From Acidovorax temperans (GTDB taxonomy: Bacteria > Pseudomonadota > Gammaproteobacteria > Burkholderiales > Burkholderiaceae_C): DNA of 64,000 nucleotides. Made by a program: the position numbers and the translations under genes. The notes under the pieces were generated by a model. That model worked only from the letters and a program-made list of their open reading frames with translations. It had not been told where the DNA came from and did no database searches. Location of the stretch: contig NZ_VFPV01000002.1 of assembly GCF_006716905.1 (NCBI RefSeq), forward strand, positions 1,020,501-1,084,500. The letters are read 5' to 3'. Positions 11,482-16,484 of this stretch are shown here, one piece after another. Each line of letters starts with the position of its first letter. Positions within the stretch are counted from its first letter, which is position 1.

Positions 11482-12612
11482 TCAGGCGGACAACAAAATC
11501 CGCAGCATGCGGCGCAGGGGTTCCGCAGCGCCCCACAGCAATTGGTCGCCAATAGTGAAGGCACCCACATACTCGGGGCCCATGGCCAGCTTGCGGATGC
11601 GGCCTACAGGGATGGTCATGGTGCCGGTCACGGCCACGGGGGTCAGATCCTTGATGGTGGCCTCGCGTGTGTTGGGCACCACTTTCACCCACTCGTTGTC
11701 GGCCGCAATCATGGCTTCGATATCGGCCACGGGCACGTCCTTCTTGAGCTTGAAGGTCAGAGCCTGGCTGTGGCAGCGCATGGCGCCCACACGCACGCAA
11801 AAACCGTCCACCGGGATGGCGGCCGAGCCAAAGCCCTCGCCCATGCCGAGGATCTTGTTGGTTTCGGCCATGCCCTTCCACTCTTCCTTGGACTGGCCGT
11901 TGCCCAGGTCCTTGTCGATCCAGGGGATCAGCGAGCCGCCCAGGGGCACGCCAAAGTTGGCGGTTTCAGCGGCAGACAGGCTGCGCTGCTTGGCGATCAC
12001 CTTGCGGTCGATTTCCAGGATGGCGCTCTTGGGGTCATCCAGCAGAGACTTCACTTCGGCATTCAACGTGCCGTATTGCGTGAGCAATTCGCGCATGTGC
12101 TGCGCGCCGCCGCCCGATGCTGCCTGGTAGGTTTGGGTGCTCATCCATTCGACCAGCCCCGCCTTGTAGAGTGCGCCCACGCCCATCAGCATGCAGCTCA
12201 CGGTGCAGTTGCCGCCCACCCAGTTCTTGCCGCCGTTGGCCAGCGCGTTCTTGATGACGGGCATGTTGACGGGGTCGAGGATGATGACGGCGTCCTTTTC
12301 CATGCGCAGGGTCGATGCAGCGTCGATCCAGTGGCCGTTCCAGCCCGCTGCGCGCAGCTTGGGGAAGACTTGCGTGGTGTAGTCGCCGCCTTGAGCCGTG
12401 ATGATGATGTCGCAGCGCTTCAAGGCGTCGATGTTGTACGCGTCTTGCAGGGTGGTTTCGTTCTTGGCTTGTGCGGGGGCCTTGCCGCCTGCGTTGGATG
12501 TGGAGAAGAACAATGGCTCGATCAGGTCGAAGTCTTTTTCTTCGATCATGCGGTCCATCAACACCGAGCCGACCATGCCGCGCCAGCCGACCAAACCTAC
12601 CAACTTGCTCAT
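11482..12612 (-). CDS. asd: Aspartate-semialdehyde dehydrogenase
   Basis: Asd reduces aspartyl phosphate to aspartate semialdehyde with NADPH, the branch point to lysine/diaminopimelate and to threonine, isoleucine and methionine. The 376-aa enzyme has the nucleotide-binding [20 protein letters not shown]-terminus and the catalytic Cys136 in GGNCTVSC. The length fits the Gram-negative class. It is preceded by a candidate leader peptide and alternative hairpins (12635-12846) and followed by its own terminator, so it is probably a single-gene unit under attenuation-like control, between leuB and fimV. Confidence 0.97.
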
Positions 12613-12634
12613 TTCAACGCCCTTTCAGATTAAG

Positions 12635-12703
12635 AAACAGTGCCAGACCAGACTGTTTGCCCCGGCTCGTCTGGCCAGGGAGGGCGCACGACGGTACCGG
12701 AGC
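12635..12703 (-). promoter_or_regulatory. Candidate attenuator hairpins in the asd leader
   Basis: Read on the minus strand just after the leader ORF stop, three pairings can be drawn. GCTCCGG (12703-12697) pairs with CCGGGGC (12665-12659). CCAGAC pairs with GTCTGG a little further on. AAACAGT (12658-12652) pairs with ACTGTTT (12641-12635). The second competes with the loop regions of the other two, as alternative structures in attenuators do. The last stem has only CTTAATCT after it, a poor T-run, so it could equally control translation of asd, whose Shine-Dalgarno (GAAAGGG) follows. Confidence 0.4.
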
Positions 12704-12707
12704 TGGA

Positions 12708-12812
12708 TCAGCCCTTAATAATGGTCGTGGTTTTGGTGGTGATTGCGCGCACAGCCACGCCTGCCAGGGCGGCAGTAGCGGTGTTCAGGGTGAACGGGCG
12801 AGCGGCAAACAT
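12708..12812 (-). CDS. Putative Thr/Ile/Lys-rich leader peptide upstream of asd
   Basis: A 34-codon ORF begins with MFAARPFTLN and ends with AITTKTTTIIKG and a TGA. Eight of the 34 codons are Thr, and the last ten sense codons before Gly are Ile-Thr-Thr-Lys-Thr-Thr-Thr-Ile-Ile-Lys. Those three amino acids are end products of the pathway that asd feeds. This resembles the threonine-operon leader peptide of enteric bacteria in composition and position. The ATG lies at the expected +1 of a TTGGCC/TAGAAT promoter, so the mRNA would be leaderless. No homologue search was possible. Alternative: a chance small ORF. Confidence 0.5.
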   Translation of the reverse strand: MFAARPFTLNTATAALAGVAVRAITTKTTTIIKG

Positions 12813-12818
12813 GCTGAG

Positions 12819-12846
12819 ATTCTAGCCGATTGCGTGCATGGGCCAA
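12819..12846 (-). promoter_or_regulatory. Candidate sigma-70 promoter of the asd leader
   Basis: On the minus strand TTGGCC (12846-12841) and TAGAAT (12824-12819) are 16 bp apart: 4/6 and 5/6 matches to the -35 and -10 consensus. The ATG of the leader ORF begins 7 nt after the -10 box, exactly where transcription should start. Confidence 0.5.
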
Positions 12847-12877
12847 TGCGGGAATTGCATACACCGTTTTCCCCAAC

Positions 12878-12902
12878 AAAAAGGGCGGCCACAGCCGCCC
12901 TT
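12878..12902 (-). terminator. Rho-independent terminator downstream of leuB
   Basis: AAGGGCGGC and GCCGCCCTT form a 9-bp hairpin with a 4-nt loop, extended by outer CCCC/GGGG; on the minus strand it runs into TTTTTGTT. It closes the leu gene group before the asd promoter. Confidence 0.85.
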
Positions 12903-12926
12903 GGGGATGACGTTGCGAACCAGCGA

Positions 12927-13997
12927 TCAGGCGAGCGCCTTCACCACGGCATCGCCCATCTGCGCGGTGCCCACCTTGGTGGTGCCTTCGCTGTAGATGT
13001 CGGGCGTGCGCAGGCCTTGGACTAGCACCTTTTGCACAGCGGCTTCGATGCGCTGGGCGGCGGCTTCCTGGTTCAGGCTGAAGCGCAACATCATCGCGGC
13101 GCTCAGGATGGTGGCCAGCGGGTTGGCCACGCCTTTGCCGGCGATGTCGGGCGCGCTGCCGTGGCTGGGTTCGTACAGGCCCTGGTTGCTGCTGTTCAGG
13201 CTGGCCGAGGGCAGCATGCCGATCGACCCGGTGAGCATGGAGGCTTCGTCGGAGAGGATGTCGCCGAACATGTTGCCGGTGACCACCACGTCAAACGCCT
13301 TGGGCGCCTTGACGAGCTGCATGGCGGCGTTGTCCACGTACATGTGCTGCAGTTCCACGTCGGGGTACTGCTGGCCCACCTCGGTGACCACGTCCTTCCA
13401 GAACTGGAAGGTCTCCAGCACGTTGGCCTTGTCCACGCTGGTGACCTTTTTGCTGCGCTTGCGCGCGGCCTGGAAGGCGACGTGGGCGATGCGCTCGATC
13501 TCGGGCTTGCTGTAGCGCATGGTGTCATACGCTTCCTCGGCGCCGGGGAAGTGGCCGTCGGTGGCCACGCGGCGGCCGCGTGGTTGGCCAAAATAGATGT
13601 CGCCCGTCAGCTCGCGGATGATGAGGATATCGAGGCCCGCAATCAGCTCGGGCTTGAGGCTCGACGCCCCCACGAGCTGCTCGTAGCAGATGGCGGGCCG
13701 GAAGTTGGCAAACAGCCCCATGTTCTTGCGCAGGCCCAGAATGGCTTGCTCGGGGCGCAGCGGGCGGTCCAGCTTGTCGTATTTCCAGTCGCCTACCGCG
13801 CCGAACAGCACGGCGTCGGCATCCATGGCGAGCTTCAGGGTGGATTCGGGCAGCGGGTGGCCATGGGCCTCGTAGGCGGCGCCGCCTACGAGGGCGGATT
13901 CCATCTCGAACGGGAGCTCCAGCGCTTCCAGAACCTTGACGGCTTCGGAGACGATTTCGGTGCCAATGCCGTCACCGGGTAAAACTGCGATTTTCAT
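12927..13997 (-). CDS. leuB: 3-isopropylmalate dehydrogenase
   Basis: LeuB oxidatively decarboxylates 3-isopropylmalate with NAD to 2-ketoisocaproate, the third leucine-specific step. The 356-aa enzyme starts [16 protein letters not shown]. It has the substrate-binding arginines in the [21 protein letters not shown] region, the [15 protein letters not shown] helix, and the NAD site [19 protein letters not shown]. It is complete. In relatives leuB commonly follows leuD directly; here about 1.7 kb of AT-rich DNA with two foreign-looking genes separates them. Confidence 0.97.
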
Positions 13998-14066: not shown

Positions 14067-14882
14067 TTATGGGTTGAGCTGGATGGGTAAATTTATGATG
14101 CGACCATTACGGAGCAGGCCGAGTAGGATGCGATTTCCTCGGCGTTCTGAAATAAGAGTGGATAGATTGTTGATGTTTGATATTGCGATGCCATCAAGAG
14201 ATACGACAATGTCGCCGGAGAGGATGTCGCCATTAAATGCAGGTGATCCATCGACGACTAGGCGGACTGCAACACCTCTGTTTGTCTGCAATTCGTTGCG
14301 CTCTGCATCATTTAAATCTCTAAAATCGGCGCCAAGTAGAAATTTTTGTTTGACGAAATAACCTGCACTATAGTCGCTCTTATGCACTGTGATTGGAATG
14401 AAGCTGGTCGTTGTCCCATAGGTGGTGCTTGTACCGCTGCTATATGCGGTGACTGTGCCACTCTTTCCGTAGGCAGTGGCCGAACCTGTCGAATATGTCG
14501 TCGTACTCGTTGGCGTGCTGATTGGTATGATTGAAGACTCCGAACCTGTGTACTGAGGATTTAGAATAACTACGAGATCTGCGCCAACAGTCTTGCCTTG
14601 CTCAATGGCGGAATTTTCAGACTCCGATCTGCCGCTATTGAAGGAAGCGCTGCCAATGAGTCTGTATCCACGCTTCGCATATGCATCAATGAGAGCCTGC
14701 CCGTTGATTGGGGCTGCTCTCTCTACCAGTGGGGTGACCGGTGGCGGGGCTGCTCGCATTGATGCAATAGTCTCGGGCGTTGCACCATTCTCCGGCTTGT
14801 AAAATTGTTTATATCCATTTGCGCAACCGCCGAGTGCAATAACGATTGCTAGGCTGATGATAAATTTTTTCTTTAGGGGCAT
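14067..14882 (-). CDS. Predicted lipoprotein with C-terminal PDZ-like domain
   Basis: The 271-aa protein has a lysine-rich N-terminus, a hydrophobic core and a lipobox ending LGGC with Cys20, so it is probably lipidated. Residues 45-115 (PINGQALIDAYAKRGYRLIG, then DLVVILNPQYT) look like a small folded domain. Residues 115-160 are Ser/Thr/Tyr/Gly low complexity. Residues 185-265 (GVAVRLVVDGSPAFNGDILS, then GDIVVSLDGIAI) match a PDZ domain, the peptide-binding module of envelope proteases and chaperones, but no protease is attached. The GC content is visibly below that of its neighbours. Function unknown; it sits in the island that splits leuB from leuD. Confidence 0.72.
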   Translation of the reverse strand: MPLKKKFIISLAIVIALGGCANGYKQFYKPENGATPETIASMRAAPPPVTPLVERAAPINGQALIDAYAKRGYRLIGSASFNSGRSESENSAIEQGKTVGADLVVILNPQYTGSESSIIPISTPTSTTTYSTGSATAYGKSGTVTAYSSGTSTTYGTTTSFIPITVHKSDYSAGYFVKQKFLLGADFRDLNDAERNELQTNRGVAVRLVVDGSPAFNGDILSGDIVVSLDGIAISNINNLSTLISERRGNRILLGLLRNGRIINLPIQLNP

Positions 14883-14952: not shown

Positions 14953-15501
14953 TCATCTGAAATAAACCCCTCGTCCGGCGCTTGTGAATGGGTCTTTCTT
15001 GTATCCGTTGGCTTGATGCAGTTCTCTGATCAAAATGATGGAATCATCTGATACTTGCTCTGCGTTTTCTAAAGTTGCGAATTTTTGCCATGCAGTTGAA
15101 GGGATTATCGACATGGGAAGCTGGGTCTCTAGCTGGGTGTCGATGATATCTGTTGTGGTTTTGCTGTGGGCCATGGAGTCCCGAAATTTAAAAAGATCAA
15201 GCAATGATTTATGTTGTTGTCTGTTTTGATCAAAGGGTATGTTGACTGCTTCTAAAAAAATTTTGTACTTCTCAAGTTTCGGGATTTTTCGTTCAATTTT
15301 TTCCCATTCTTTATTACGCAAACTACCTAAATGATTGAGGTATGCTTCGATCATGAATGCTGACAGCAAGAGAGAGGCGGTGCATGTGTAAATTCGCCCC
15401 TCTTCGCTAGCCTTTGCTAAGCTCAGCATATGACGAGATCCTATCCATAGGTAAACAAAAGTTTTTGTCTTTTGGCTTCCTCGGATATTTTGGTTAAGCA
15501 T
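14953..15501 (-). CDS. Hypothetical protein with HEPN-like R-x4-H motif
   Basis: The 182-aa, mostly helical protein is not one I recognise by name. Residues 40-60 (TASLLLSAFMIEAYLNHLGS) and FKFRDSMAHSKT with Arg107, Asp108 and His112 follow the pattern of HEPN domains, whose R-(polar)-x3-H motif is the active site of many toxin and defence RNases. Several other HEPN proteins are only binding modules, so RNase activity is inference. Base composition is AT-rich (about AAA/TTT codons throughout), unlike the leu genes on either side. No antitoxin (MNT/nucleotidyltransferase) gene lies next to it. Confidence 0.6.
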   Translation of the reverse strand: MLNQNIRGSQKTKTFVYLWIGSRHMLSLAKASEEGRIYTCTASLLLSAFMIEAYLNHLGSLRNKEWEKIERKIPKLEKYKIFLEAVNIPFDQNRQQHKSLLDLFKFRDSMAHSKTTTDIIDTQLETQLPMSIIPSTAWQKFATLENAEQVSDDSIILIRELHQANGYKKDPFTSAGRGVYFR

Positions 15502-16358: not shown

Positions 16359-16484
16359 TTACTTGGCGGCGCGCTCAATGGCGTTGCCTGCGCGTTCAAT
16401 GTCTTGGCCCACACCCTTGACGGTGTTGCAGCCCGCCAGCACAAAGGCCAGCGCAAGGGTGATGAAGGCGACAGTCTTGTTCAT
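16359..16484 (-). CDS. Entericidin A/B-type small lipoprotein
   Basis: A 41-aa ORF too short for routine gene finders: MNKTVAFITLALAFVLAGC, a signal peptide ending in a lipobox with Cys19, followed by NTVKGVGQDIERAGNAIERA, the amphipathic tail typical of the entericidin EcnA/EcnB family (PF08085). A clear AAGGAG sits 7 nt before the ATG at 16484. Entericidins are small envelope lipoproteins described as a toxin/antidote pair in enterics; here only one is present. It sits between leuC and leuD, as in related genomes (from memory), and may just be co-transcribed with them. Confidence 0.85.
   Translation of the reverse strand: MNKTVAFITLALAFVLAGCNTVKGVGQDIERAGNAIERAAK

Follow-up and report, generated by a model that had tools for sequence, protein, structure and literature searches.

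We identified a putative leader-peptide attenuator, conserved among relatives, preceding asd, which encodes aspartate-semialdehyde dehydrogenase. The leader is probably leaderless and appears to read threonine, isoleucine and lysine codons, and sometimes methionine codons; in many genomes the end of leuB would serve in its place.

Genomic context of the leader

The instance described here lies in a 64,000-nucleotide stretch of DNA from Acidovorax temperans, hereafter the window, which is assigned to Comamonadaceae. The gene order on the minus strand is leuC, an entericidin-like small lipoprotein gene, leuD, two further genes, leuB, asd, and a large FimV-like gene, where leuC, leuD and the FimV-like gene are what we take these genes to be from their sequences. 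The lipoprotein gene between leuC and leuD (16359-16484, minus strand) encodes 41 residues and matches Pfam Entericidin with 39.8 bits. Of the genes in the leuD-leuB interval (14067-14882 and 14953-15501, both on the minus strand), one encodes a PDZ-domain protein and the other a 182-residue protein with no NCBIfam or Pfam match. The features from leuB to asd are the following.

12927..13997, minus strand: leuB, encoding 3-isopropylmalate dehydrogenase (TIGR00169, 494.5 bits; translation)
12881..12902, minus strand: terminator-like hairpin 3' of leuB (pattern scan)
12819..12846, minus strand: promoter-like site TTGGCC-N16-TAGAAT (sequence scan)
12708..12812, minus strand: leader ORF of 34 codons, MFAARPFTLNTATAALAGVAVRAITTKTTTIIKG followed by the stop (translation; relatives)
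12714..12743, minus strand: putative sensing run of ten codons, Ile-Thr-Thr-Lys-Thr-Thr-Thr-Ile-Ile-Lys
12659..12703, minus strand: hairpin S2, GCTCCGGTACCGTC (12703-12690) with GACGAGCCGGGGC (12671-12659)
12660..12680, minus strand: alternative hairpin S3, CCCTGGC (12680-12674) with GCCGGGG (12666-12660)
12681..12686, minus strand: CGCCCT, complement of the asd Shine-Dalgarno region (AGGGCG, 12623-12618)
11482..12612, minus strand: asd, the presumed target (NF005144, 641.9 bits; TIGR01745, 611.4 bits)

The asd start at 12612 follows NCBIfam asd_gamma and lies 23 nt beyond the lower end of the segment (12635..12846) covered by a first-pass annotation. That annotation had described a 34-codon ORF with a Thr/Ile/Lys end just upstream of asd, and the ORF is indeed present (12812-12708, minus strand), with 95 nt between its stop and asd. 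Its tail reads AITTKTTTIIKG, the run being followed in translation by one glycine codon and the stop. The translated LeuB of the window has a plain C-terminus (ten residues, letters not shown) and carries no such run. The terminator-like hairpin at 12881..12902 probably splits the leuB transcript from the asd transcript in this genome.

Conservation of the codon run

The first-pass annotation made conservation of the terminal codons in relatives a check on its reading, and this is borne out, with change among separate-ORF tails falling mostly at third codon positions. Within 400 nt upstream of asd, a forward frame ends with at least six Thr, Ile, Lys or Met codons among its last ten in 75 of 81 loci. 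The reverse strand gives 0 of 81, and each block-shuffled set about 0.5. The 81 loci are the window and the 80 best asd loci of a bacterial genome scan, mostly titled Comamonadaceae; the exceptions are L019, which has just 40 nt upstream of asd, and L065, L068, L071, L078 and L079, which lack the run. At the same 6/10 threshold, a run-type end is found in 27 of 120 further upstream regions, compared with 3 for the reverse strand and 0.76 for shuffled sequence; the searches that supplied these regions covered 150 genomes of the order, 60 genomes of a second family and 3 genomes of a third. These 27 rows represent 25 genomes, since L134 and L201, and likewise L135 and L200, are identical places. 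Similar leaders thus occur in two further Burkholderiales families beyond that of the window: in part of the second family (such as AIVITKTITTKTIIKR and TATTIKTITKTIP) and in the third (SIKRTTTIITKTVMKG, SITTIITKKTKTIILV). The remaining families among the 120 regions show no run at this threshold.

The run is confined to the end of the leader. Across 64 separate leaders the fraction of Thr, Ile, Lys and Met is 0.834 in the last ten codons, versus 0.099 elsewhere, and leaders with unrelated N-termini share the tail. The runs use all four threonine codons, both lysine codons and two isoleucine codons, and some relatives also have methionine codons. A short ORF rich in end-product codons therefore lies ahead of a biosynthetic gene, as in known attenuators, and as far as sequence can tell the codons of the run are those of the metabolic branch that asd feeds. 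In the window genome itself, the KTTTI codon pattern has one match, at this leader; the reversed pattern, used as a control, likewise has one, so that the count shows merely the absence of a second copy. A stricter pattern disallowing Ile-Ile missed the window leader in the genome scan. It is the relatives, not this single-genome count, that place the run beyond chance.

The position of the run relative to the stop is also nearly fixed. The final codon is never Thr, Ile, Lys or Met in 75 of 75 leaders of the first set, 20 of 20 divergent leaders and 19 of 19 leaders of the second family (114 leaders in two families), and the codon before it is one of these four in 75/75, 20/20 and 18/19, respectively; the 75 were found by a pattern allowing only Gly, Ser, Arg or Thr between run and stop, which favours run ends near the stop, and the 20 and 19 without that limit. 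Outside this tally, the three distinct leaders of the third family end in KG, LV and LV, and the two ending in LV break the rule.

Distribution of the RNA element

A covariance model built from 46 sequences matches 166 of 200 genomes of the window's family (107 of 126 genera), with one match per genome in nearly all, among the matches listed. In all 34 strong matches examined (the 30 best of the family search and 4 of the order search) the element adjoins asd, preceded by a separate ORF in 31 and by a LeuB tail in 3. Seven marginal matches lie in other families; six of these loci were fetched, and none of the six contains asd. For these neighbourhoods and for the classing of LeuB ends, a run was called at five of ten codons, and for the weakest matches and the genomes without a match at four of ten. 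On that basis the 20 weakest among the matches listed comprise 19 LeuB tails and one other ORF. Twenty of the 34 family genomes without a model match were examined; three have a weaker LeuB tail, one has a degenerate tail and 16 have none, asd being split between contigs in one of the 16.

A probable leaderless start

The TTGGCC-N16-TAGAAT promoter of the first-pass annotation was recovered as the sole promoter-like site on either strand of 12000-13500 (shuffle mean 0.1). Its TAGAAT box lies six bases before the leader ATG. The annotation also placed this ATG at the transcription start, and the relatives, in which promoter conservation was assessed on the -10 box, agree with that placement: a TACAAT-like box stands 6-8 nt before the ATG in 62 of 64 separate leaders (exactly TACAAT in 55), where the chance rate is about 0.5%. 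The two exceptions have TATACT at 9 nt. The choice of leader start codon took no account of the box; it aimed at a length of about 33-34 codons. In the second family, a TAGACT, TAAACT or TATATT box lies 6-8 nt before the ATG in 19 of 19 leaders.

A Shine-Dalgarno-like 4-mer precedes the leader in just 1 of 64 separate ORFs; with a slightly wider set of 4-mers, one precedes asd in 62 of 64 of the same loci. Because of the box spacing in 62 of 64 loci and the single Shine-Dalgarno-like 4-mer among 64, we read the separate leaders as probably leaderless, with almost no 5' UTR in the window. Leaderless leader peptides occur in Actinobacteria and Sinorhizobium. Leaderless transcripts are also among those reported for Burkholderia cenocepacia (PMC4603805) and Cupriavidus metallidurans (PMC7563307), although the word asd is absent from the main text of both papers.

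Hairpins following the leader stop

In relatives the S2 hairpin directly follows the leader stop (CCTGGTTCGTC...GACGAGCCGGG) and reaches up to 12 bp; it is imperfect in the window. S3 (CCCGGC with GCCGGG in relatives) uses the 3' strand of S2, so that the two are mutually exclusive. S2 is paired in 91.8% of cells on 48 sequences and 91.3% on 46, compared with at most 52% in slid controls, and S3 in 96.5%. The covariation score of S2 was reached by 6 of 500 shuffles on 48 sequences and 0 of 500 on 46, and that of S3 by 0 of 500, but kin sequences may exceed shuffles in such statistics without any structure. S2 shows a few compensatory changes, and its further pair types are fewer than in most shuffles. 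The number of double-change pairs is unremarkable both for S2 (reached by 72 of 500 shuffles on 48 sequences and 98 of 500 on 46) and for S3 (419 of 500). Where the base shared by S2 and S3 is A (5 of 46 sequences), it faces U in S3 every time and in S2 four times. A small hairpin spanning the stop codon is also conserved (89.1% paired). Alignment A2, with 19 loci of the second family, shows conserved hairpins with hardly any variation, which makes covariation uninformative there.

The competing hairpins of the first-pass annotation are therefore conserved in relatives, but the window leader alone folds no better than shuffles (z -0.75 and -1.04). RNAalifold on alignment A1 recovered just five S3 pairs. 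As to paired stem changes, the comparison supports one conserved hairpin pair, and the Shine-Dalgarno pairing showed no covariation. A further possible hairpin, AAACAGT...ACTGTTT (window 12635-12658, minus strand), lies 3' of S2 in many separate-ORF loci of alignment A1 and is absent from LeuB-tail and Rhodoferax-type rows.

The run at the end of leuB

Many relatives have no separate ORF; instead LeuB itself runs into the codon run (...MGDAVVAAITGKTITKS). Acidovorax delafieldii and Hydrogenophaga pseudoflava carry the separate leader, whereas Roseateles asaccharophilus and Paucibacter have the LeuB tail. Further LeuB ends of this kind are ...MGDAVVAAITKTITKG, ...AITTTTKTIKS, ...AATTMTKTIKG and ...AITGKTITKS, and the hairpin sequence after the stop is common to both forms. 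In 17 LeuB-tail loci the extension past MGDAVV averages 11 residues, 66% of them Thr, Ile, Lys or Met, while LeuB ends without the run, a mean of 4.1 residues past MGDAVV, in 57 separate-ORF loci and 6.6 residues past it in 19 loci with no leader; since the classes were set by run position, this contrast describes exclusivity and is no independent test, and 41 loci whose LeuB end was not within 900 nt were left out. The ending AALRGKALTRS of LeuB at L274, followed by recognisable S2-like sequence, looks like a decayed leader. In five LeuB-tail loci (L244, L248, L251, L252 and L258) there is a possible extra hairpin, GGACCC(C)...GGGGTCC, over the S3 strand before asd.

A tree of Asd with 92 rows, among which 12 are LeuB-tail, requires 10 changes between the three states, the direction not being given. 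This is a quick tree in which 40 of 89 inner branches are open and from which divergent LeuB-tail loci were left out. Its well-supported branches force at least three changes for the separate ORF, outgroups included, and only one for the LeuB tail, which allows that the LeuB tail may have arisen once. It is fairly probable that in a large part of the family the gauge for asd is built into the last codons of leuB as Thr/Ile/Lys(Met) sensors, and that it has moved at least once between leuB and a free leaderless ORF. The tree places the asd loci L033 and L050, whose records bear the titles Akkermansia and Singulisphaera, with Limnohabitans rows, and the records look like mis-binned contigs.

A model for the control of asd

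The codon run, its in-frame conservation, the apparently leaderless layout, the conserved hairpin and the fixed distance between run and hairpin point to the following model, in which we infer that the ribosome stalls, which way asd responds and at what step it is controlled. Transcription would start at or within a few nucleotides of the leader ATG, as the conserved -10 spacing suggests, and a ribosome would translate the leader from this ATG. A shortage of charged Thr-, Ile- or Lys-tRNA would hold the ribosome on the terminal run, its front leaving the stretch after the stop free, so that S2 could form and asd be expressed. With ample amino acids, a ribosome at the last codon or the stop would cover the 5' strand of S2, and the freed strands could form S3 and let the CGCCC element pair with the Shine-Dalgarno region of asd, turning asd down. 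In many relatives the last codons of leuB would act as the leader.

That a ribosome-mediated attenuator sensor acts on asd we consider likely, and translation of the Thr/Ile/Lys run probably sets the level of asd. The control by stalling that the first-pass annotation proposed thus finds support in the comparison of relatives, but a short leaderless peptide is not the sensor throughout: in many relatives the run lies in the last codons of leuB. As to the output, we give about even chances that it is the initiation of asd translation rather than transcription.

We folded the RNA ahead of a ribosome placed at each codon in 72 loci (62 separate-ORF and 10 LeuB-tail), omitting L066, L070 and L080, for which the automatic search gave no Shine-Dalgarno sequence. 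Counted from the first base of the codon in the A site, the ribosome edge was set at 13 nt. In the separate-ORF loci S2 has a predicted mean of 5.8-7.4 bp for A-site codons -2 to -13, and falls from 7.4 bp at codon -2 to 0.4 at -1 and 0.03 at the stop. Given that the final codon is never Thr, Ile, Lys or Met in the 114 leaders tallied, the run ends where a waiting ribosome would cease to permit S2. S2 reaches at least 6 bp at codon -2 in just 42 of 72 loci. In the LeuB-tail loci S2 amounts to just 1.2-3.5 bp over codons -2 to -13, peaking at -2, and S3 at the stop position is predicted at 6.3 bp, versus 1.8 bp in the separate-ORF loci.

The position of the ribosome changes the predicted S2 but not the predicted access to the asd Shine-Dalgarno sequence. 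We sought a clean Shine-Dalgarno switch by simple folding, and found accessibility to be unrelated to ribosome position. Between codon -2 and the stop the sequestering helix goes up in 21 of 72 loci and down in 11, and in the LeuB-tail loci it runs opposite to the model, being weaker when the ribosome is at the stop than when it is far upstream. Complementarity between the CGCCC element and the Shine-Dalgarno region averages -14.6 kcal/mol, versus -9.8 kcal/mol for shuffled sequences (standard deviation of the shuffled mean 0.33). Covariation between cognate CGCCC elements and Shine-Dalgarno sequences is absent among the 48 distinct of the 72 loci (permutation p 0.78).

Alternative explanations

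The same sensor could act through premature termination of transcription within the leader, intrinsic or Rho-dependent, as in the E. coli thr operon, whose attenuator works on transcription (PMC12925634). We hold this output possible though rather doubtful. The failure of simple folding to give a clean change in Shine-Dalgarno access speaks for it, as do terminator-like sites between the leader stop and asd in 10 of 75 loci, five of which, in Hydrogenophaga-type loci, consist of GGTCTGGTCTGGACC and then a T-rich tail. However, these 10 of 75 are no higher than the 9 of 64 in the 250 nt preceding the leader start, where genuine leuB terminators may lie. Pattern scans gave no such site in the window leader or in any of the 19 second-family loci, and none in 65 of the 75 loci and 18 of the 20 divergent ones. 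An intrinsic terminator between leader and gene, which marks thr-type attenuators, is thus missing from the window and from the 65 loci, and this favours translation or Rho over a thr-type terminator.

Other readings deny the codon gauge itself. The stretch could be an RNA-level element, such as a protein or Rho binding site, with the peptide incidental, and it is indeed A/C-rich, with nucleotides strongly conserved in close relatives and, among LeuB tails, a merely slight third-position excess (52, 147 and 163 pairwise differences at codon positions one, two and three, n=10 distinct). Changes among separate-ORF tails, though, are concentrated at third positions (32, 182 and 435, n=18 distinct), the isoleucine insertion is one whole codon, and directly after the run come one other codon and the stop. 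Other clades, moreover, have different nucleotide strings with the same amino-acid make-up, and we regard an RNA-level element as very unlikely. The third-position excess in separate ORFs, together with the free order of residues, suggests selection on codons beyond nucleotides. An arrest peptide or otherwise functional peptide that gauges no charged tRNA would account for the tail TKTTTIKG, found in 36 of 75 first-set loci, and peTrpL is a known leader peptide that acts in trans. Yet residue order is free across clades, with composition kept (ITKTITKG, TTTKTIKS, TTKTIIKR, TITKTIP), a pattern more in keeping with codon sensing than with a specific contact of the nascent chain, and we give a functional peptide little chance. 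Finally, the Thr/Ile/Lys-rich tail of LeuB does belong to LeuB in LeuB-tail genomes and could be a feature of that protein that resembles the leader ORF by accident. Such a coincidence is highly improbable, as the run is absent from the LeuB end in separate-ORF and no-leader loci and behind the stop both forms have the same hairpin sequence.

Implications and comparison with known systems

If the model is correct, the branch-point gene asd is under leader-peptide control in a major bacterial order, and the gauge reads several end products of one intermediate together. It would also give a handle on threonine, isoleucine and lysine supply in Hydrogenophaga, Acidovorax and similar genera. The LeuB form suggests how the translation of an enzyme that is itself functional can be read for regulation. 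With a similar RNA element following two kinds of putative sensor, these genomes offer a natural experiment, in which the origin of leader peptides would be directly testable.

In the open-licence literature searched, preprints excluded, we found no description of asd attenuation in Betaproteobacteria or of a leuB tail in the role of leader; Vitreschak and colleagues reportedly surveyed proteobacterial attenuators in 2004. The thr attenuator controls thrABC from an ordinary 5' UTR with an intrinsic terminator, and is not known to sense lysine. The thrL leader of the thr operon in enterobacteria resembles the leader described here in that threonine and isoleucine codons precede aspartate-family genes under ribosome-mediated attenuation (PMC12925634). 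Unlike thrL, the present run also contains lysine and sometimes methionine codons, and the presumed target is asd rather than thrABC. The separate leader is probably leaderless, no general intrinsic terminator was found, and the sensor sometimes appears to lie in leuB. The uORF of Corynebacterium ilvB-II is alike in being rich in pathway amino acids and lying ahead of a biosynthetic gene, but that gene is the branched-chain gene ilvB, and transcription attenuation has been proposed for it (PMC10272879).

The asd RNA motif RF01732, given in a table of PMC2864571, likewise bears the name of asd, and an attenuator-like sequence before asd of Streptococcus mutans figures in a title among the references of that paper; both belong to Lactobacillales. 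The window contains no Rfam match at or above the gathering score of its family, and none to the RF01732 model; near the leader, with E up to 10, there are three weak matches (E 0.13-1), none of them to asd and all far below gathering scores. For the LeuB form the closest likeness is to secM-secA, where a ribosome halted near the end of the upstream coding region alters RNA structure before the next gene. However, SecM is a dedicated regulator with an arrest sequence, whereas LeuB is a metabolic enzyme whose terminal run resembles a codon gauge.
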